A program made the position numbers and the translations under genes. From Schizochytrium sp. TIO01 (taxonomy: Eukaryota; Sar; Bigyra; Thraustochytrida; Thraustochytriidae): a stretch of 64,000 nt of DNA. The stretch is taken from positions 2,619,001 through 2,683,000 of the forward strand of contig SMSO01000033.1 of assembly GCA_004764695.1 (NCBI GenBank), written 5' to 3'. Shown in pieces: positions 8,958-46,188 of this stretch. A model generated the notes under the pieces. It was not told where the DNA came from. It did no database searches and saw only the letters and a list, made by a program, of their open reading frames with translations. How positions within the stretch are numbered: position 1 is the stretch's first letter; each line of letters opens with the position of its first letter.

Positions 8958-10973
8958 TTACATTTGGTGCCTGAAAAAGTAAAAAAAGCTTTCCGCGAGC
9001 TTTTTGATCCAGGGGCGTGTGATCCATGCAGCATGCTCGACCTTATCGCAGTTGTGCTCAATGTCGTGCTCGATACGAGAAAGCAAGTCAGTAGCAAAAC
9101 CTTTATCATGGATAACAGTTACGATCTCCAGATTGTAATACCAAGACCGGTAGTCTAAATTATACGTGCCAATAGTGGAGACCTCACCATCAATGATGCA
9201 GAGTTTGCAGTGCAACATCGATGGAGTATATTCATAAAGCTTAATACCTTTGCTCAGCATACGCTCGTACATCGCATGTGTAGCAAAACGAACAGACTGC
9301 AAATCTGTCTTCTCACCAGGAACTACGACACGTACATCTACACCACGATCTGCCGCACGATATAACTCACGGCGAATACTGGAGCAAGGAAGAAAATAAC
9401 TGTTTGCAATGGTAATCTGATGCTTCGCATTGTGAATCGCGCGTAAATAGCCACGGCGGATTGTGTTGCGCTCACTAAGAGCATCGTTGGTGATAATTTG
9501 CACATGCGAGCCAAGCTTTTGCCAACGCGTCTGTACCTGTTCAAAGAATAGGTCACGTGGCCGCATGTAGTTCGCCTGAGTGTGTTCGTTGTCACCGTCC
9601 AAACTCGAGCTATCCTCCTTGCCGTTTGGAAGGCCACTCACACTACCACTGCCGTTGCTGATACCAAGATTTGCGGATAGACTTGTGGCAGCATTAACTG
9701 TAGCCTCTGCAGCGGCAGTTGCCAAGGAAGTTTGCTGCCGTGCAGCATGCATCCAGCCAACTTGAAGACGGCCCTGGGCTGACCACCACGCATCAGATGC
9801 TGAGCGCACGGTGTTCTCTTGCTTCAGTCCAAACGGGAAAAGAAGCAGCGTGTCATCCGGCAACGTGAGCAGGCGCTTAAGCAAGGATCGGGTCATGGCA
9901 TCGCGACCTTTATCGACTGAAAGTGCAACTTCGTCCCGAAGCTCCTGGAAACGCCCGCGGTTCGAGGATCTCCAGCCCAGAAGCACACGCAAGGTTGAAG
10001 GCCGAATAGTGGTACACTCCACATCGTCACCACGGTCATCATTTCCTTCGCGCAAAGGACCCACAAGTCGTTCAAAGATACCAGCAAAGGCAGGTACAGC
10101 AGGCCCCTCGATACGGACCATCACATCACGCCAAGCCTCACCACCTTGCTCCTTGGGGAGCCAGAAGTTGCAGATATTCATGCCACCGGTGATGGCAACC
10201 TTGCGATCAACAACCAAAAGTTTGCGGTGGTCACGCCGGATCATGCGGTCCAGACGGTATTTACGTTGCCAAGGTGCCATCGGGTTAAACTCAAGCACCT
10301 CGCAGCCATGCTTACGCATTTCGAGAAACATGTTCTTGTCAGCCTCCACACAGCCAAACCCATCGTAAACAACACGAACTGTAACACCCCGGTCGGCAGC
10401 ATCAATGAGCCTGTTAGCAATACTCCAGCCGGCCTTGTCTGACTCGAACCAGTACATCTCGAAGAGAATTTCATCTTGCGCATTCTCAATAGCCTCATAC
10501 ATGGCTGGGAAAATCTCAACACCATCGTTGAGCGCGCGAACACGATTTCCACAAACCAGATCGCGAGGTGGTAAAGGATCCCACATCGCTAACGCTGTGG
10601 TGTCTGCAGGGTTCGTGGTGCCAGATACCTCTGGGAGCGAGCATTCAGGTTTCGCGAGCTCGACTGGCAAATTTGAAGCATGTGTCGCAGAATTTAGAGA
10701 CGATGCCGAGGATGTAGACGACTCCCGACGTCCCCAACAAGAGAGAATAGATCCTGTACTCGAAGTGGCTGCGGAGTTTGATGGAACTGATTTCACGAGG
10801 CCAAGGCCTAGCGCAGCCGAGTGATAGTTTACGCACGGCATACCGTAATGGCCCCTGCTAAGGACGCCGGCATGACTGCCACGAAGGACGCCCTGAGCCC
10901 CTGTAGAGACCACATCGACTCCACAAAGCACACCAGAGGCAGGTCGCTGGACCCTTCGCGACGCAGCTCGCAT
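8958..10973 (-). CDS. bacterial-type (PLD-superfamily) cardiolipin synthase, probably mitochondrial
   Basis: Phospholipase-D-fold transferase expected to condense two phospholipids (phosphatidylglycerol with PG or PE) into cardiolipin. I start it at the ATG at 10973, giving 671 residues; frame continues upstream without another ATG. The N-terminal ~60 residues are rich in Arg, Ser, Gly and Ala and poor in acids (MRAASRRVQRP..), like a mitochondrial presequence. The first HKD motif is H249-K251-D256 in HRKLLVVDRKVAITGGMN; the second is H588-K590-D595 in HCKLCIIDGEVSTIGTYN, followed by DYRSW. The segment between (roughly 340-500) is enlarged by a low-complexity Ala/Ser/Gly linker relative to bacterial enzymes. 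Bacterial Cls usually has N-terminal TM helices; here they are replaced by the presequence-like region. Enzyme class is clear; a phosphatidylserine synthase or other PLD transferase role cannot be excluded. Confidence 0.85.
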   Translation of the reverse strand: MRAASRRVQRPASGVLCGVDVVSTGAQGVLRGSHAGVLSRGHYGMPCVNYHSAALGLGLVKSVPSNSAATSSTGSILSCWGRRESSTSSASSLNSATHASNLPVELAKPECSLPEVSGTTNPADTTALAMWDPLPPRDLVCGNRVRALNDGVEIFPAMYEAIENAQDEILFEMYWFESDKAGWSIANRLIDAADRGVTVRVVYDGFGCVEADKNMFLEMRKHGCEVLEFNPMAPWQRKYRLDRMIRRDHRKLLVVDRKVAITGGMNICNFWLPKEQGGEAWRDVMVRIEGPAVPAFAGIFERLVGPLREGNDDRGDDVECTTIRPSTLRVLLGWRSSNRGRFQELRDEVALSVDKGRDAMTRSLLKRLLTLPDDTLLLFPFGLKQENTVRSASDAWWSAQGRLQVGWMHAARQQTSLATAAAEATVNAATSLSANLGISNGSGSVSGLPNGKEDSSSLDGDNEHTQANYMRPRDLFFEQVQTRWQKLGSHVQIITNDALSERNTIRRGYLRAIHNAKHQITIANSYFLPCSSIRRELYRAADRGVDVRVVVPGEKTDLQSVRFATHAMYERMLSKGIKLYEYTPSMLHCKLCIIDGEVSTIGTYNLDYRSWYYNLEIVTVIHDKGFATDLLSRIEHDIEHNCDKVEHAAWITRPWIKKLAESFFYFFRHQM

Positions 10974-13900
10974 CGCGGTCAAGATCCCTTCCCGAGTTCG
11001 AGTTTGCTCGCCTGCAGCACGGGAACGAAGACCACGCAAGTCCTCGCTCGCACTGTAGTCCGTCCAAACAATAGTCTACAGTAGACATTTCCTATTCTGT
11101 TCTGTATTCCTCCCCTATACTATACAGTATTCTTTATACTTCACTGTGTATACTTCACTGTGGCGAAACCCCTGCCTTTTTTGCTTTACTTTTTTTTTCT
11201 TTGTTCCCTTTTTTGCCTTCTTTTATCTGCTCTTCTTCTTTTCTTTTTCTTCTGCAATTTTCTATTATGTCATTCATTCTCCATAAAAGTGTACGTAACA
11301 GTCTATTAGAGGGGTGGAAAGGACCAACCGCAGAAGCCTGAATCTCGAGCTCATGCTCAAAGCCTTTCTTCATGAAATTCAACATGCAGACGCAGAGTAT
11401 ATGTGGTGAAAAAGGTTGACCAGGAAACCAATTGCAGTCTTCACGAGCTGTCGTAGCGCAAACATCGCAGAGGCTCAACTGCCTGAACAGATGACAGCAG
11501 TTTTGACAGCTTTTATGAAAGCATGTTTTAGTTTAAATAGTTTTTAGCCTAAATAATGATAATGATAACAATGATAAGAAAATAGTAATAATAAGTATGA
11601 CCATCATAAAATAATGATAAGAAGAATTTATCCGAAAAGAACAGAATGAACACGCGGGACGTACGTCAGTCGAGTCGCCAAGTCTGATTTGCGACAACAA
11701 AACTGACGACAGCAAACTAAACAGTCTTTAGTGAGCCTCCGGCGCGCAGGAAATTAAACGACAATTAGCATGATACTTCGTCCAATCCACGCTACAAAAC
11801 AACGAGAGCCCAAACCCCAAGGTGCTAAATAAACCTTGCACAGGCGTTTGTCTGTTCTGAATAGAACATTATGTAGAGCCTTCAGTATCAGTGAATGCTG
11901 ATGGGCTCGAAGTTGTTAATTGGCTCGAAGCATAAATCACCATCAACGAGAGCTGCATCTGATTCACGCATGGTCGATACGCCTTTTCGAATACCGGAAT
12001 AACGTTCTCAATCACTCGCATTAAATAGATTAGTATTTGGACATGGACAAAACTCACGGCAAAGTATGTCACTCATTCCTGGGCAGAATGTATTCTTTTC
12101 GGTACAGAGCTGTCATAATCATGTATTGCAGGGCTCATTATCGAGTTCGAAATGTATCCGTCTACATCCGAGACGCGTGTTGACGTTAACGCTGTTGAAA
12201 TCATGTCAACTAACAAGGATGCGACAAATGTGCCTAGAGAACATCTTTGTAAACAAGTTGAAACGGGCAATTTGCAAATGCTTTTCGAGAGCAATGATCA
12301 CCTCGCCTCTCAAACTCCCCGCGTTGCTCTTCCATGATGCCATACCAAACAGGAAATTGATTCGCGATATTTATAATCAGTCCTAATGCTAAGATGATGG
12401 CGATAACAAACAAGTTGATGATGGTTCTCTGAAAAATACAAATCGAATTACAGTAAAACCCATCTCATGTGTGTCGTCTTTCAGGTACGTTAGCTAGTCA
12501 GAAACGGAGGTCCATGAACAGCTTACCACTACGAGTAACCGAGCGGCCTTCCAAACTTGTATGCCAAACTCTACTAACTAGAGAAGTGCTTCTCTAAAAG
12601 TCCTCAAACCGTCCTCCGTCCGACCAAGCTCGATGTGAATTTTCCGCTGGCGCCCAGCCGAGACAGAGATTAATTACAGTGACAGGATCATCTTTTGGGG
12701 AAGGTGCGGTTGCACAATGTATAAATGATGGACGTCTACCTATAGTTTTATATCAAATCGTGGCAATTGAAAAGGGCGCTTTCAAGGAGGCTTTGTAGAG
12801 AAGAGGCCTTGGTGTCAACCGAACTTGAAGCGAGGAACCCTCTAGAGAACTCGGAAGCCTAGTGTAAGAAGAACAAGTGTTTGGATGATCCACAGAATAC
12901 ATGCGTCAATAGCCCGTCTCTGGTCCCCAGGTATTATAATGAAGGAAGAACCTATGACGTCTTTTGTAATGTTGGTGAAATTGGCGTTGGACATTCAGAG
13001 TGAGTGTGAGGAATGCATAAACTTAAGCTTTGCCTGCAATTTAGCGTCAGCTGAGAAGCGAACAGATCAATATACCAGATACCAGCCCATAGTATGAGGG
13101 ATACCCTTGACTTGAATTATACTATGATCGTAGGAAAACGAAGAGGTAGGTCTGACAACGATCCAGAAAGGTATATCTATTGCCTCATTCCATTGAATGT
13201 GGATAAGTTTTTTTTAATGCGCAATTAGAAAGTCACATGGTAGCCTGGCAGAGTACACTCTTTAAAAGTAGAAGGGAGGAGGTGTTCAATACACTTAGTT
13301 TGTCTGGTTTTTACTTCTGTTTTCTCAAAAAGAAACTCAGCTTCCACCACAGAGGTTTTGTCATTTGCAAAAGAAGCGTTGTCGTATCGTTTCATTGGCA
13401 ATAATTAAATATACTTTTCCCTTTAGATATCGATTGAGTGCAAACCTCAAGCAAATAGTAGCTTCTGTAGTTGTTTGTTTACTTGCCAATCAATTTGTAG
13501 CATTTGATTTGCCCTAATTGCATATTGAGAGGAATATCTATCGCTCGAAAGATCGTTGGTTTTTTACAGGCTGACAATCACCCCAAGTAGATTAACATCT
13601 CCCTGCTCCACGACTCCGGACTGTTTCCACCAAACCCTTGAGGTCTTTAAGTTTCTCTTCTCTACTCTGTCCCTATTCACTCCCTTAACATAATTTTGAT
13701 CAATTTAACACCAACGTGGAAAAACATGTGCATGGTGTCCTCGTTCTTCGACCAAGGTGATACCATAAAAGATGATGGGCACGTGGCTCTTTATGCCTAA
13801 GCATCTGCCAGCGAGTAGAGTTGTGTTATTAAGACCTAAGCGGATTCTAACTGTCCACGCCTTATATTTTTTTACATTGGTGTTGATGATGAAGGATCAA

Positions 13901-38912: not shown

Positions 38913-39668
38913 CTAGAAACGGCCCTTGACAATCTTCTTTGATGTCTCAATCATATCCAAAAGCTCATCCTTCTGCATAGATTGGGTAGGCAGATCCAGA
39001 AGACCAGCAGAGACGTTGACATCGTTCTTCACCTCCCATTCAATTTGACGGAGCTCCTCAATGGTTCGCGCCTGGAGCTTCTCCGCGAGGGTCACGCGAG
39101 GGTCCTGCTGAAGCATAAGAGGTTGCACGCCGGGCACCCCAATGTGAGAACCAAGGCGTCGAAGGTTATCAGCGCCTTGCTCAAGGGTGTGCTTGCTAAA
39201 CAGGTCTGTAGGCACGCCACCGAGGGCCAAGCTTGTGGCGCCACCATAAAGCATAGGAGAGAGAAAAGCAAGCTTCATAGAGTTCGTCAAACCGTAGGCA
39301 AATCCTGAGGCAAAACCACTTCCAGCAGGCATGTTAAACTTGAGGAGTTCCGTAGTGTTGTCAAGCATGATCTTGAAGTCCTCGGAGGTGATCTTACCAT
39401 CGTCATTCATGTCAAGCACGCCGTAGTAGTCGCGTTCGACCTTGCGCCAGTTGACATCAATGTAGCCCATGTATGCCAGACTCTGCACAAAGCAGAAGCC
39501 GCTGCCAAGAACTACCGCCGCAATCTTTCCTCCCTGGCGGAGAGCAAATCCAGACGTCAGACCGGCAAGAGTACCCACTCCAAGTTGAGTTCCAGCAGGA
39601 ACGAGCCTCGTGATCATGTCATCCTCAGCCACGGTGACATTATCATTGTGGTTACCAGGCACCGACAT
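38913..39668 (-). CDS. FUN14-domain protein with an embedded EF-hand
   Basis: 251 residues, ATG at 39668. FUN14 proteins (FUNDC1/2 in animals) are mitochondrial outer-membrane proteins, FUNDC1 being a mitophagy receptor. The family core is present: GTLAGLTSGFALRQGGKIAA, then a hydrophobic helix VVLGSGFCFVQSLAYMGYI and DVNWRKVE (residues ~30-78). A second glycine-rich hydrophobic segment follows at ~113-160 (GSGFASGFAYGLTNSMKLA, LYGGATSLALGG). Between them residues 86-97 form an EF-hand loop, DMNDDGKITSED, which supplies Ca2+-ligand positions 1, 3, 5 and an Asp at 12. The C-terminal ~60 residues are charged and helical. The LIR motif of FUNDC1 (YxxL near the N-terminus) is not seen, so a mitophagy role is uncertain. 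Ca2+ binding is a sequence-based inference. Confidence 0.85.
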   Translation of the reverse strand: MSVPGNHNDNVTVAEDDMITRLVPAGTQLGVGTLAGLTSGFALRQGGKIAAVVLGSGFCFVQSLAYMGYIDVNWRKVERDYYGVLDMNDDGKITSEDFKIMLDNTTELLKFNMPAGSGFASGFAYGLTNSMKLAFLSPMLYGGATSLALGGVPTDLFSKHTLEQGADNLRRLGSHIGVPGVQPLMLQQDPRVTLAEKLQARTIEELRQIEWEVKNDVNVSAGLLDLPTQSMQKDELLDMIETSKKIVKGRF

Positions 39669-41408: not shown

Positions 41409-42755
41409 ATGTTGCGTGCAGGAAGTAGGCTAGGTGCGGTGCGCCATGCGGCGATGCGGCCTGAGTCGGTTTGGAGCCTGAGTCGGTCAAGCTCTCTGCA
41501 GTGGTGCTCCTGCTACTTGTCAACGACGTCCAGAGATATGAGCTCCACATCAAAAGCGGGGGCGCCGAGCTCTGCGAAAAACGAAGGATCCGGAGCGGGT
41601 CAGTGGGCTGTGGTCCGCGCTAACAAAGAAATCTACGCGTGGCTTAACGCACGAGCGGCAGCGCTTCTCTCGGGCGAGAACGGCGCCAAGCTTCAGGAGA
41701 TTGGTATTACTGCGAATGGTATCACCGCTGCGCGAACATCACTCATCGCCCCAACACTTTTTTTGTATTCTGCCGGCTATACGGTCCTTCCTGCTTCCCT
41801 AGTTGTGATCAACGTTACCTTTGACTACGTCGATGGCGCTGTGGCACGTGCAGAGCAAGCACTGAAAAGAGCTAAGATCGCGGAAGGTGTTGTTGAGGGA
41901 CCTTTGCAGACTAGTGCCAGAGCAGCTCGGCTAAGGGACACTTGGGGAGCTTACTTTGATGCGATTGCAGATAAAGCTTTTGCGATTCCTGTGTGGCTGT
42001 GTCTGTTTCAGCATTTTGGAGGGCACTATGTACTGCAGACTGCACTCCTAGCACATGTTGGCGTGGAGACGTATAGCTCGTATGTACGCACAAAGGCGTA
42101 CTTTGCGGAGTCTAGCTCAGCTCACTGGCTACATGACTACAGCCCAACAGCACCGCCTTCGACCCCCAAGCTTGATGTGCCGGCTGGCAAGGGTGAAGGT
42201 ACAAAGGAGGGTGGTGCCAAAAAGGACGCGGCGCCAGCAAGCAAACCCGCGTCCGCTGTTGTAGCTGGCATGGTCGGCAAGACCAAGCAGTTCGTTGCCA
42301 TGCTTGGTACAGCCATGGTAATGATCCCTGTTACACAGACTCTTGGCACGGTGCTCTTGTGCGGATCGGTACCACTCGCTGTAGGTAGTGTTATGCAGAA
42401 GATCGGCAATCGCGTCGTGTACGCTGAGATTGTGAACGAACCACTCACGGCTGAGACAATTGACTTTCTTGAACGGAGCAAGGCATTAGGCACACGTCTC
42501 ATTGTGGGCATCCGCGAGCCATCTCCAGAGATGGCACGTCCCGACTATGATGTTTCCCCAGCAATTCGATTGTTGGCTCCGGTTGATGCGGTTCTTGCTG
42601 CACAGTATCTTCCACCATCGCACTCTCTTGCTGACGATGCTTTCATGAGTAAATTCGGCATTCATGTTGTCGCAGTACCTTCGTCTAGTACCTTTGCAGC
42701 AGCCGACTCGAACCCTGATCACTTTCACCGTGGAAAGATTGTGCCCGTTGGATAA
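41409..42755 (+). CDS. CDP-alcohol phosphatidyltransferase fused to a degenerate cytidylyltransferase-like domain
   Basis: 448 residues. The N-terminal ~45 residues are basic/Ser-rich with few acids (MLRAGSRLGAVRHAAMRP..), a likely mitochondrial presequence. The transferase signature D-x2-D-G-x2-A-R..G-x3-D-x3-D is complete: Asp139, Asp142, Gly143, Ala146-Arg147, Gly180, Asp184, Asp188 in DYVDGAVARAEQ and GAYFDAIADK. The AR-to-G spacer is 32 residues rather than the usual 8. Hydrophobic helices flank it, and a basic GKTKQ block follows a low-complexity Lys/Ala loop (~250-290). The family transfers a phosphoalcohol between CDP-diacylglycerol or CDP-alcohol and an acceptor; PGP synthase or CLS_cap-like cardiolipin synthase are candidates. 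Residues ~336-425 resemble a cytidylyltransferase fold (FLERSKALGTRLIVGI, LLAPVDAVL, FGIHVVAV), but the catalytic HxGH position reads TAET, so this half is probably non-catalytic. Confidence 0.85.
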   Translation: MLRAGSRLGAVRHAAMRPESVWSLSRSSSLQWCSCYLSTTSRDMSSTSKAGAPSSAKNEGSGAGQWAVVRANKEIYAWLNARAAALLSGENGAKLQEIGITANGITAARTSLIAPTLFLYSAGYTVLPASLVVINVTFDYVDGAVARAEQALKRAKIAEGVVEGPLQTSARAARLRDTWGAYFDAIADKAFAIPVWLCLFQHFGGHYVLQTALLAHVGVETYSSYVRTKAYFAESSSAHWLHDYSPTAPPSTPKLDVPAGKGEGTKEGGAKKDAAPASKPASAVVAGMVGKTKQFVAMLGTAMVMIPVTQTLGTVLLCGSVPLAVGSVMQKIGNRVVYAEIVNEPLTAETIDFLERSKALGTRLIVGIREPSPEMARPDYDVSPAIRLLAPVDAVLAAQYLPPSHSLADDAFMSKFGIHVVAVPSSSTFAAADSNPDHFHRGKIVPVG

Positions 42756-44865
42756 TAATAATAGAGTGCACTGCGCTTTTAGTTTCACATCCCATGTTAA
42801 GTGGGCCAGTTTTTATAATGAGATAGTTTGCCACCACAGCTGGTTGATTGGCTAACTGCCTCCTCTAGTCAACCTCCCTACCCCCCACCCCAAAAAAAGG
42901 TAATCTTCGTGTCGTATCACCTTTTGATGAATGAAATACATGAGTATGTGCACTGACTGCATTTACACGTTACCTCTTTCAATATCCACTTAGATTTGAG
43001 ATTTGAGATTCTCTCGACGCAAATCAAGACCCCACTTAACTTCTTTTGCGCTCTCTTCGTCGTCGTCTTAATTCCCTCTGCGCTCCTTTCACTTTTTTTC
43101 ATTGAATATCTAAACGTGAGATACGAAGTGTAGCATTAAGATTATCGCTTAAAGAATTCCAAGAGTTGCAGCACTGTGAAGTATTTACATAAGTCCAACT
43201 ACATCGTCAATCGTCAATAGTACAATTCGAACAACAGTAGTTTTTCTAGTAATCGTCTGCTCAACTAAAATATGTCTGCTATCTCAACGTTTGGAACTAA
43301 CGCCACCTAATCCTTTGTAACCAAAGAGCAGCACACCCTATTTGCGTGTCTTCGATGTCTTGCCTACTAGCTCTTCATTGATCCTTCTTGCTTGCGCTGA
43401 AACTTTATCCATCCTGTACGAAGTCGGCAGCTTATTCGACAGAGTTAATTCACTTTCGTCAAAATGCGTTCATAAAGTATCTTCAGAACAGTCCACCAAT
43501 AGCATTCCTTAATCTCAGTAAAGAGAGTTAAGCACCTGTCCTTTTACTAGATGTTGAAAAAAGCGGTGCCGATCCTCAACTCAGACAGGGCAAAGGGTAT
43601 CTAACTCCTACTCTGGCTCACAAACAGTCCGAAAAAGCTGCGCCGAAGCTCGATATCAGCGGAATGTAGAACCCTGCAAAACGTTTTAGTATAAACAAGC
43701 ACCCATCCTCGCGAAGTTGGAACGGGTTTGTATCTTCACGCGTATTGCGTGTTGGAACTCGACAAATGTTGTGCGGTCGATTTTGCCTTCCAAAGTGGAA
43801 GATCGAGTCACAAATCACCCCCACAGATTCAGCGCTTAGGTCACTTGCGCTCAAGAAGATCGTAACATACGTGTGCTTTTCGCGGATGATACTACCCATT
43901 ACTATCACGTATCTTAAATTCGCAAGAATCGAAGTCAGATTCAGTTATGTGCGTCCTAGACTCAAGTCGATGAAGTGGCGAAAGAATGCTATGATCAAGC
44001 GCCAGCCCTTGAAAGCATTGTAAATTCTTGCTGCACAACAATCTGCTGAAGACTAAAGCTGCAAATCGTGGCTCCGGTGTTACGCCGCCAGCAGCAATGC
44101 ATAGTCCCACTATCTTCAGCTTGCTCTGGTAGAATAGTGGTGGCAACTTTCATGCAGCTTGCATTTATTTCTCATGGCATGCCAACGACTGTACTAATGG
44201 CATCAATCGAAGTATGCATTTTTCATAAGGCAGGAAAATAAAAGTGCATTACATCTCCAACTTGCAGTTCTTGCAATTCTTGCACAAATTCATGTCGCAA
44301 ACCGAGGCAAAGCAAGCCACCTTGGTTAATCCTATCCGTACATCTTCCTTGCAATTTCAATCCAATTTCCCAAATTTTCGCAGCACCCTGCAAGTTATTT
44401 TTTTGGCTTCCGTCGTTCCAGTGCTTCCATGGCGCTTTGTCGGGAGGGTTGCGATCTTGCAGAGCCTCGGTACCGGTACCACTTTATGGACCTCGCCTTG
44501 TGCGCTAAGCCTCCTTCCGCACTAGTGACAGCTACTGATAACTGGTAGTACTCGATCACAGCGAGGGAAAAGAAAGAAATAATAAATTAAAAAAAATTTC
44601 GTTTTGGATATAGGATTTAGAGCAAATAGAACAATGTTTAGTGCCTATCTTGACGAGTTTTCGAGATTGTGGATCCTGAGGATTTCGAGTTTCCAATGCA
44701 ATCATCGATGAGCAAACCCGAAACTAGCCCAAGCAGCTCCAAAGCACAAACGGCCTTGGCAGACACGATACGAGTTGGAGGCAGCGCTGCTCCACGAGAC
44801 GAAAGGTACGAGTTGGGACACGGAACCCGCAAGATAACTTGAGGGACGGAGAACGTATAGCAACC
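42756..44865. other. intergenic region
   Basis: 2.1 kb between two plus-strand genes. Overlapping short frames at 43618-44146 on both strands (up to 96 codons) lack any domain and are not called. The last ~100 bp hold the xylose isomerase leader. Confidence 0.5.
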
Positions 44866-46188
44866 ATGGGTGAATTCTTTCCCGAGGTTGGCAAGATTGA
44901 ATACAAGGGACCAGGCAGCAACGATGTGCTTTCGTACAGGTGGTATAACCCTGATGAAGAGATCCTTGGAAAGAAGATGAAAGACTGGCTTAAGTTTTCT
45001 GTCTGCTTTTGGCATACTTTCCGAGGCGTCGGCATGGACCCCTTTGGCAAACCTACGATCACCAGCCGCTTCCAGGGCGATGATGGATCTGACTCAGTCG
45101 AAAATGCGCTCCGTCGCGTAGACGCCGCCTTTGAGCTATTTACAAAGCTTGGCGTTGAGTACTACAGCTTTCATGATGTGGATGTTTCTCCCGAAGGTGC
45201 AACACTCAAGGAGACAAATGAGAACCTTGACAAGATTACCGACCGCATGCTAGAACTGCAAAAGAAAACAGGAGTGAAGCTTTTGTGGGGTACAGCTAAC
45301 CTCTTTACCAACCCCCGCTACATGAACGGTGGCTCCACGAACCCGGACCCGAATGTCTTCATTCGAGCTGCTGCACAGGTTAAAAAGGCTATCGATGTTA
45401 CGCACAAGCTTGGTGGTCAAGGTTTTGTATTTTGGGGTGGTCGCGAAGGCTACATGCACATTCTCAACACTGATGTTGTGCGTGAGATGAACCACTATGC
45501 CCAGATGCTGAAGATGGCGATTGCATACAAGAAGAAGATCGGCTTTGATGGTCAAATTCTTGTGGAGCCAAAACCTCGTGAACCAATGAAGCACCAATAT
45601 GATTACGATGTACAAACCGTGATTGGGTTCTTGCGAGAGCATGGGCTTGAAAAAGAAGTCCTGCTGAATGTTGAACCCAACCACACCCAGCTTGCGGGCC
45701 ACGAATTTGAGCATGACTTTATCTTTGCTGCCAAACTTGGCATGCTTGGAAGCATTGATGCTAATACCGGGTCTGAGAGTCTTGGCTGGGACACTGATGA
45801 GTTCATCACTGACCAGACTCATGCGACTCTGCTGTGTCGCACGATTATTGAGATGGGCGGTTTCAAAAAAGGTGGCCTTAACTTTGATGCCAAGGTGCGA
45901 CGCGAAAGTACTGATCCAGAGGATCTCTTTATCGCGCACGTGGCATCTATGGATGCACTTGCTAAAGGTCTTCGCAATGCTGCCAAATTGGTTGATGAAG
46001 GCCGTATGGCTAAGATGCTCGCAGAGCGCTACGCTGGATGGGACTCTGGACTAGGTAAGAGAATTGAGGATGGCCAGAGTTCGCTTGACGAGCTGGAGGA
46101 TCATGCGCTCCAGAATGATGAGGAGCCCGCTAAGACTTCAGCAAAACAGGAGAAGTTTATTGCTGTTCTCAACCAATACATTTCTTAA
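44866..46188 (+). CDS. xylA: xylose isomerase (class II)
   Basis: Interconverts D-xylose and D-xylulose (and D-glucose/D-fructose) with two divalent metal ions. The ATG at 44866 (MGEFFPEVGKI) gives 440 residues, the normal length of long class II enzymes. All signatures are present: FSVCFWHTFRGVGMDPFG, the catalytic His-Asp in YYSFHDVDVSPEG, VFWGGREGYM, ILVEPKPREPMKHQYDYD, the metal-ligand Glu and His in NVEPNHTQLAGHEFEHD, DANTG..LGWDTDEF with metal Asp residues, and LNFDAKVRRESTDPEDLF. Two small departures from common bacterial forms are DANTG for DANRG and NVEPNH for N(I/V)EANH. There is no signal peptide, so it is probably cytosolic and allows redox-neutral pentose use without xylose reductase/xylitol dehydrogenase. 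Base composition resembles neighbouring genes, so any transfer is old. Confidence 0.96.
   Translation: MGEFFPEVGKIEYKGPGSNDVLSYRWYNPDEEILGKKMKDWLKFSVCFWHTFRGVGMDPFGKPTITSRFQGDDGSDSVENALRRVDAAFELFTKLGVEYYSFHDVDVSPEGATLKETNENLDKITDRMLELQKKTGVKLLWGTANLFTNPRYMNGGSTNPDPNVFIRAAAQVKKAIDVTHKLGGQGFVFWGGREGYMHILNTDVVREMNHYAQMLKMAIAYKKKIGFDGQILVEPKPREPMKHQYDYDVQTVIGFLREHGLEKEVLLNVEPNHTQLAGHEFEHDFIFAAKLGMLGSIDANTGSESLGWDTDEFITDQTHATLLCRTIIEMGGFKKGGLNFDAKVRRESTDPEDLFIAHVASMDALAKGLRNAAKLVDEGRMAKMLAERYAGWDSGLGKRIEDGQSSLDELEDHALQNDEEPAKTSAKQEKFIAVLNQYIS

Follow-up and report, generated by a model that had tools for sequence, protein, structure and literature searches.

The protein encoded by the ORF described here, the window protein, appears to be a membrane-bound CDP-alcohol phosphotransferase (CDP-AP) with an intact predicted active site, which is joined to a domain of the HxGH-type cytidylyltransferase (CT) fold lacking catalysis. 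We consider it reasonably probable that this domain plays a scaffolding or gating role. The two domains, the intact signature, the loss of the CT motifs, and a 24-residue extension of one loop were all read from the sequence. Most membrane phospholipids are made by CDP-APs. Fusions of nucleotidyltransferases with CDP-APs are already known in archaea and bacteria (Af2299 and IPCT-DIPPS). What appears to be new here is a C-terminal HxGH-type domain on eukaryotic CDP-APs, which is almost certainly dead in one protein and intact on an apparently dead CDP-AP in another. No report of a C-terminal HxGH-CT/CDP-AP fusion was found in the literature, of which coverage was incomplete. In the cited papers, the relatives of known structure that carry CT-like domains come from archaea, and the main use of the soluble domain in that work was to assist crystallisation. 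The occurrence of a eukaryotic CDP-AP with a pseudo-CT beside its mirror-image fusion makes the role of such domains testable in one organism.

Open reading frame

The window, that is, the whole stretch of 64,000 nucleotides that was analysed, corresponds to G000:C32:2619001-2683000 of a 64 Mb eukaryotic genome, and a genome search showed that the ORF (Table 1) is present there in a single copy. Coding preference in its own frame was positive in all 50-codon blocks from codon 51 to the stop codon, including codons 351-448, and was weak across the first 50 codons. Since the preference was positive up to the stop codon, the C-terminus is not a frameshift product. Judging from the composition of the N-terminal Arg/Ser-rich stretch, the protein is probably targeted to mitochondria.

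Table 1. Features of the ORF and its product (positions in the window)
Feature	Position	Strand	Basis
Single-exon ORF, 448 aa, CDP-AP core plus C-terminal pseudo-cytidylyltransferase domain	41409..42755	+	ORF translation, copy count, coding preference
N-terminal stretch of 43 aa resembling a mitochondrial presequence (6 Arg, 0 Lys, 2 acidic, 12 Ser/Thr)	41409..41537	+	Composition only
CDP-alcohol phosphotransferase core, aa 86-335	41664..42413	+	PF01066, NCBIfam models
CDP-AP signature D139xxDGxxAR...G180xxxD184xxxD188, 8/8 residues	41823..41972	+	Sequence reading
32-residue AR-to-G2 stretch, ~24 extra basic residues, TM2-TM3 loop	41850..41945	+	Spacing comparison
Low-complexity TM4-TM5 linker, Pro/Lys/Gly/Ala rich (approximate)	42105..42251	+	Sequence
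Pseudo-cytidylyltransferase domain, aa 333-448 (last ~115 residues)	42405..42752	+	Profile, pairwise, and decoy comparisons
TAET (aa 347-350) replacing catalytic HxGH	42447..42458	+	Alignments

The CDP-alcohol phosphotransferase half

A first-pass annotation had placed an intact CDP-AP signature at residues 139-188. These positions were exact, and all eight signature residues (D139, D142, G143, A146, R147, G180, D184, and D188) were retained. The core scored 33.9 bits against PF01066, above the curated Pfam cut-off of 22, which assigns it to the class I CDP-APs. After excision of the low-complexity TM4-TM5 linker and of the 24 residues added to the TM2-TM3 loop, the resulting loop-trimmed core matched the model from end to end with 55.8 bits. 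In MjPSS, any change of the CDP-AP motif lowers or abolishes activity (PMC8633023). From the retained signature we infer that the active site of the window protein is intact, and the enzyme is predicted to be active. The hydropathy profile peaked only in the TM1/2, TM3, and TM5/6 regions and did not cleanly resolve six helices, the minimum number of transmembrane helices for a class I CDP-AP.

The spacing between the AR and G2 residues, which had escaped the annotation, is 32 residues in the window protein versus 8 in 11 of 11 other CDP-APs with a readable signature. The possibility that the 24-residue insert is really an intron was rejected because reading of the sequence yielded no GT-AG pair giving both the usual spacing and G180.

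The NCBIfam models nearest to the loop-trimmed core were those of phosphatidylinositol-phosphate (PIP) synthase (PIPS, 53.9 bits), archaetidylinositol-phosphate synthase (AIPS, 52.4 bits), and pgsA (40.7 bits), all below their cut-offs. Membership of the PIP synthase family requires 170 bits (NF045883; 25.8 bits before trimming), that of the AIPS family 180 bits, and that of the PGP synthase family PgsA 109.1 bits (TIGR00560; 17 bits before trimming). The prokaryotic PIP and archaetidylinositol-phosphate synthases thus resemble the CDP-AP half most closely, over their full length once the loops are removed, whereas they have no fused CT and show the 8-residue spacing, and the window protein falls far below the cut-offs of both families. 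Among PDB entries, the core matched mycobacterial PIPS and, more weakly, the CDP-AP half of Af2299. No PLD-type Pgs1 was seen among the PF13091 matches of the genome, and the window protein has a GKxK motif at residue 290, as in PgsA. Its assignment by elimination as the PGP synthase of this genome was rejected since the NCBIfam ranking prefers PIPS and AIPS, and no substrate is claimed.

Similarity of the C-terminal domain to cytidylyltransferases

The CT-like pattern noticed earlier in the C-terminal part was compared with CTs by several methods. In hhalign, the domain scored 40.4 (probability 90.6%) against a wider CT profile, whereas the best of 991 real non-CT protein segments reached 24.4 (18.6%) and 300 shuffled sequences did not exceed 21.3 (7.3%) with the same profile. 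Against five CTs from the same genome, hhalign gave a probability of 89.6% (P 1.9e-6), and the alignment ran from the first through the fourth strands, with IHVVAV paired with IHIVAH. A CT HMM built without the fusion paralogue described below gave 10.9 bits, compared with at most 5.3 in 5,000 shuffles. BLASTP detected phage CTs from viral contigs with E values of 5e-7 (L019, 35% over 52 aa) and 2e-7 (L058), and the CT of the second fusion, on contig C30, with an E value of 5e-5. The Smith-Waterman score with the C30 CT was 64, and none of 2,000 shuffles (26.5 ± 4.4) was as high. In another decoy set, the segments that outscored the window domain all carry recognisable CT or PPAT sequence, with the exception of d228, which is visible just as the aligned stretch KVAVGGTFDHFHGGH and is PPAT-like. 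Because the hhalign and HMM scores lie above those of decoys and shuffles, the likeness to CTs is beyond chance.

On the other hand, Pfam, including PF01467, gave no CT match for the domain even at an E value of 10, and NCBIfam gave nothing significant, the best hint being HldE (E 0.04-0.13). The structure prediction proposed in the first-pass annotation spoke for a CT-like fold when CT sequences were supplied and was uninformative for the domain alone. The AlphaFold2 (AF2) model of the single domain had a pLDDT of 42, with alternating strands and helices, and its Foldseek list was not meaningful. With eight phage CT rows added, pLDDT reached 82-90 in blocks across model residues 11-70 and was below 50 for the final 24 residues. 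The best structural matches of this model, which depends on the CT rows and serves only as supporting evidence, were CTP:glycerol-3-phosphate, choline-phosphate, and ethanolamine-phosphate cytidylyltransferases (Z ~10). Taken together, the comparisons confirm residues 333-448, at the level of sequence, as a diverged HxGH-type cytidylyltransferase domain.

The phage CT of L019, among the best matches of the domain, is central in an 853-aa ORF (L019:1127-3688), the flanks of which read as glycosyltransferase- and LicD-like. A 609-aa ORF (L013:898-2727) contains a tandem pair of HxGH nucleotidyltransferase domains, and its C-terminal part looks GHMP kinase-like.

Loss of the catalytic motifs

HxGH and RTEG(I/V)ST(S/T) are the signature sequences common to CCT, ECT, and GCT (PMC6060094). 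Alignment bore out the earlier observation that TAET stands in place of HxGH in the window domain. The second signature, which the annotation had also reported missing (as (R)TxGISTT), is absent together with the final helix, because the chain stops just past the strand preceding it. In addition, a deletion has shortened the MNxxER segment by six residues. The replacement of HxGH and the missing signature and final helix indicate that the CT half is almost certainly dead. In the CT tree, the branch to the window domain was very long (10 changes per column), which is the expected outcome of losing catalytic constraint.

A second fusion in the same genome

One more CDP-AP and CT fusion, of 555 aa (L012:292-1959; G000 C30:2085832-2087499), emerged when matches to both families were sought across the genome; it scores 25.3 bits for PF01066 and 49.9 bits for PF01467. 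The CT of the C30 fusion is intact, with the motifs HLGH and RFDGMSTSEL, and a comparison with human ECT gave an E value of 3e-24. Its CDP-AP part aligns with CEPT1, and the signature reads DAVDSKQAS...T...D...S, four of the eight residues having been lost (G1 to S, R to S, G2 to T, and D4 to S). D4 is the proposed catalytic base, and the D93N change in PIPS nearly abolishes activity (PMC4634129). In MjPSS D66S, where D66 is taken to be D4 from the motif order, metal did not restore the lost activity or did so negligibly (PMC8633023). The CDP-AP half of the C30 fusion therefore appears dead, and the intact CT together with the signature losses, including that of D4, suggests that the protein is probably a membrane-anchored ECT.

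Both proteins consist of a CDP-AP with a CT domain directly C-terminal to it. They differ in that the C30 fusion combines a CEPT-type CDP-AP with a broken signature and an intact ECT-like CT, and the window protein shows the opposite pattern of decay. No similarity between the two CDP-AP halves was detectable (z -0.4). A shared origin of the two CTs was disfavoured (p-AU 0.012) and grouping of the window CT with the HldE-like L010 and L011 gave a p of 0.479, in tests that are weak owing to the length of the window branch. Since the CDP-AP halves lack detectable similarity and the CTs are not favoured as sisters, the two fusions are probably independent in origin. It is possible, though we put it forward only tentatively, that this lineage fused CDP-APs to CTs at least twice and kept one half catalytic each time, with the dead partner as a scaffold or regulator; the window protein would then combine a live CDP-AP with a dead CT, and the C30 protein a live membrane-tethered ECT with a dead CEPT. 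If so, the two fusions, as mirror images within a single pathway, would offer a natural experiment in the control of phospholipid synthesis by pseudoenzymes.

The window protein had been proposed to be a former bifunctional enzyme whose CT half was repurposed, on the grounds that the two enzyme types act in consecutive steps. The fusion of a CDP-AP to a CT-fold domain without its catalytic motifs is supported, and past bifunctionality is unproven. The CDP-AP half is nearest to enzymes using CDP-DAG, and the notion of two consecutive enzymes is unsupported for this protein; it would fit the C30 fusion. PIP and archaetidylinositol-phosphate synthases use CDP-DAG or CDP-archaeol as donors (PMC4634129). 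Both donors are lipids. HxGH CTs are not known to make CDP-DAG or CDP-archaeol, and the product of the CT need not have been a substrate of the CDP-AP.

Comparison with known systems

Af2299 of Archaeoglobus fulgidus (PDB 4O6M) and the PIPS chimeras (5D91, 5D92, and 6WM5) resemble the window protein in being CDP-APs with a CT-like soluble domain, which in their case packs on the membrane domain (PMC4634129). Pockets in this domain take up two residues from the TM2-TM3 loop, and addition of the Af2299 CT-like domain to PIPS raised expression with a comparable Vmax (PMC4634129). However, Af2299 is an archaeal protein with an N-terminal domain and CDP-glycerol as the donor, and a comparison of the CT profile with the PDB did not place it within the top 60 matches. 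The bifunctional IPCT-DIPP synthases, such as AfDIPPS, which were also found here in bacterial genomes, likewise carry a nucleotidyltransferase and a CDP-AP on one chain; by sequence reading, the nucleotidyltransferase lies N-terminally in these enzymes and belongs to the sugar-phosphate (MobA-like) type instead of the HxGH type. The closest relatives of both Af2299 and AfDIPPS are PIP synthases (PMC4634129). The C-terminal position of its domain sets the window protein apart from both types of fusion. In sequence and predicted fold, this domain resembles ECT, CCT, and GCT as well as the domain II adenylyltransferases of HldE, from all of which it differs by the loss of HxGH and RTEGIST(S/T). 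Orthologues of the whole window protein were absent from the viral contigs, phages, plasmids, and prokaryotic (GTDB) genomes searched.

Possible role of the C-terminal domain

We infer the docking and scaffold function of the domain, like the targeting, activity, and substrate of the enzyme, from the features above. The window enzyme would probably be mitochondrial and use a soluble acceptor. In a six-helix CDP-AP, the N and C termini lie on the active-site side, and the dead domain, attached right after the last membrane helix (TM6), should therefore sit over the cytosolic or matrix face. There it would probably pack against the TM2-TM3 loop, enlarged in this protein, in the manner of the Af2299 CT-like domain. 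It may help to fold or stabilise the enzyme, assemble the dimer, or gate the pocket, and would make no CDP-alcohol. Because the Af2299 domain packs on the same loop, which is enlarged here by 24 residues, and the window domain would lie on the same face, scaffolding or gating is the best-supported guess, and by this analogy a structural scaffold is favoured.

The main rival is a regulatory role, in which the dead domain has kept its affinity for a cytidine nucleotide (CTP, CDP, or CMP) and exerts control over the CDP-AP half. Feedback of this kind is plausible, as CDP-APs release CMP, and within the nucleotide fold preservation is best over strands 1 and 2 and helix 1. Nevertheless, the CTP pocket of CCT and ECT is shaped by HxGH, the RTEGIST(S/T) loop, and a segment of the MNxxER type, all of which are absent or deleted here, and with the CTP-holding residues of known CTs lost we regard nucleotide sensing as unlikely. 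Somewhat less likely still is a functionless remnant, on its way out, of a former bifunctional or mis-fused enzyme. The very long branch and the truncation right past the strand before the RTEGIST-type signature would suit such decay, whereas the reading frame remains open and coding-like up to the stop codon and the fold-determining pattern was kept.

The silence of Pfam and the poor sequence-only AF2 model could also mean that the C-terminus is an unrelated alpha/beta domain resembling CTs by chance. In view of the decoy and shuffle controls and the agreement of several CTs on one register, this is very improbable. It is more improbable again that the domain is active through other catalytic residues and the protein truly bifunctional, because both histidines of HxGH and the C-terminal signature are missing; the sole support for this idea is the existence of bifunctional nucleotidyltransferase-CDP-AP enzymes such as IPCT-DIPPS. 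The scaffold or gate is thus preferred to these explanations.

Other observations in the window and genome

Near the ORF, the window encodes a FUN14-family protein at 38913-39668 on the minus strand (PF04930, 91.6 bits). A xylose isomerase-like protein is encoded at 44839-46188 on the plus strand (PF01261, 42.8 bits). A PLD-type, bacterial-like cardiolipin synthase is encoded at 8958-11039 on the minus strand (TIGR04265, 259 bits with a cut-off of 290; ClsB model, 247 bits with a cut-off of 281), and contig C36 of the genome carries a further cardiolipin synthase, of the CDP-AP type. Each eukaryotic group has been described as having one type or the other (PMC3378450). The core sequence of 18S rRNA was found at 52 places in G000, scattered across most contigs and often near their ends.
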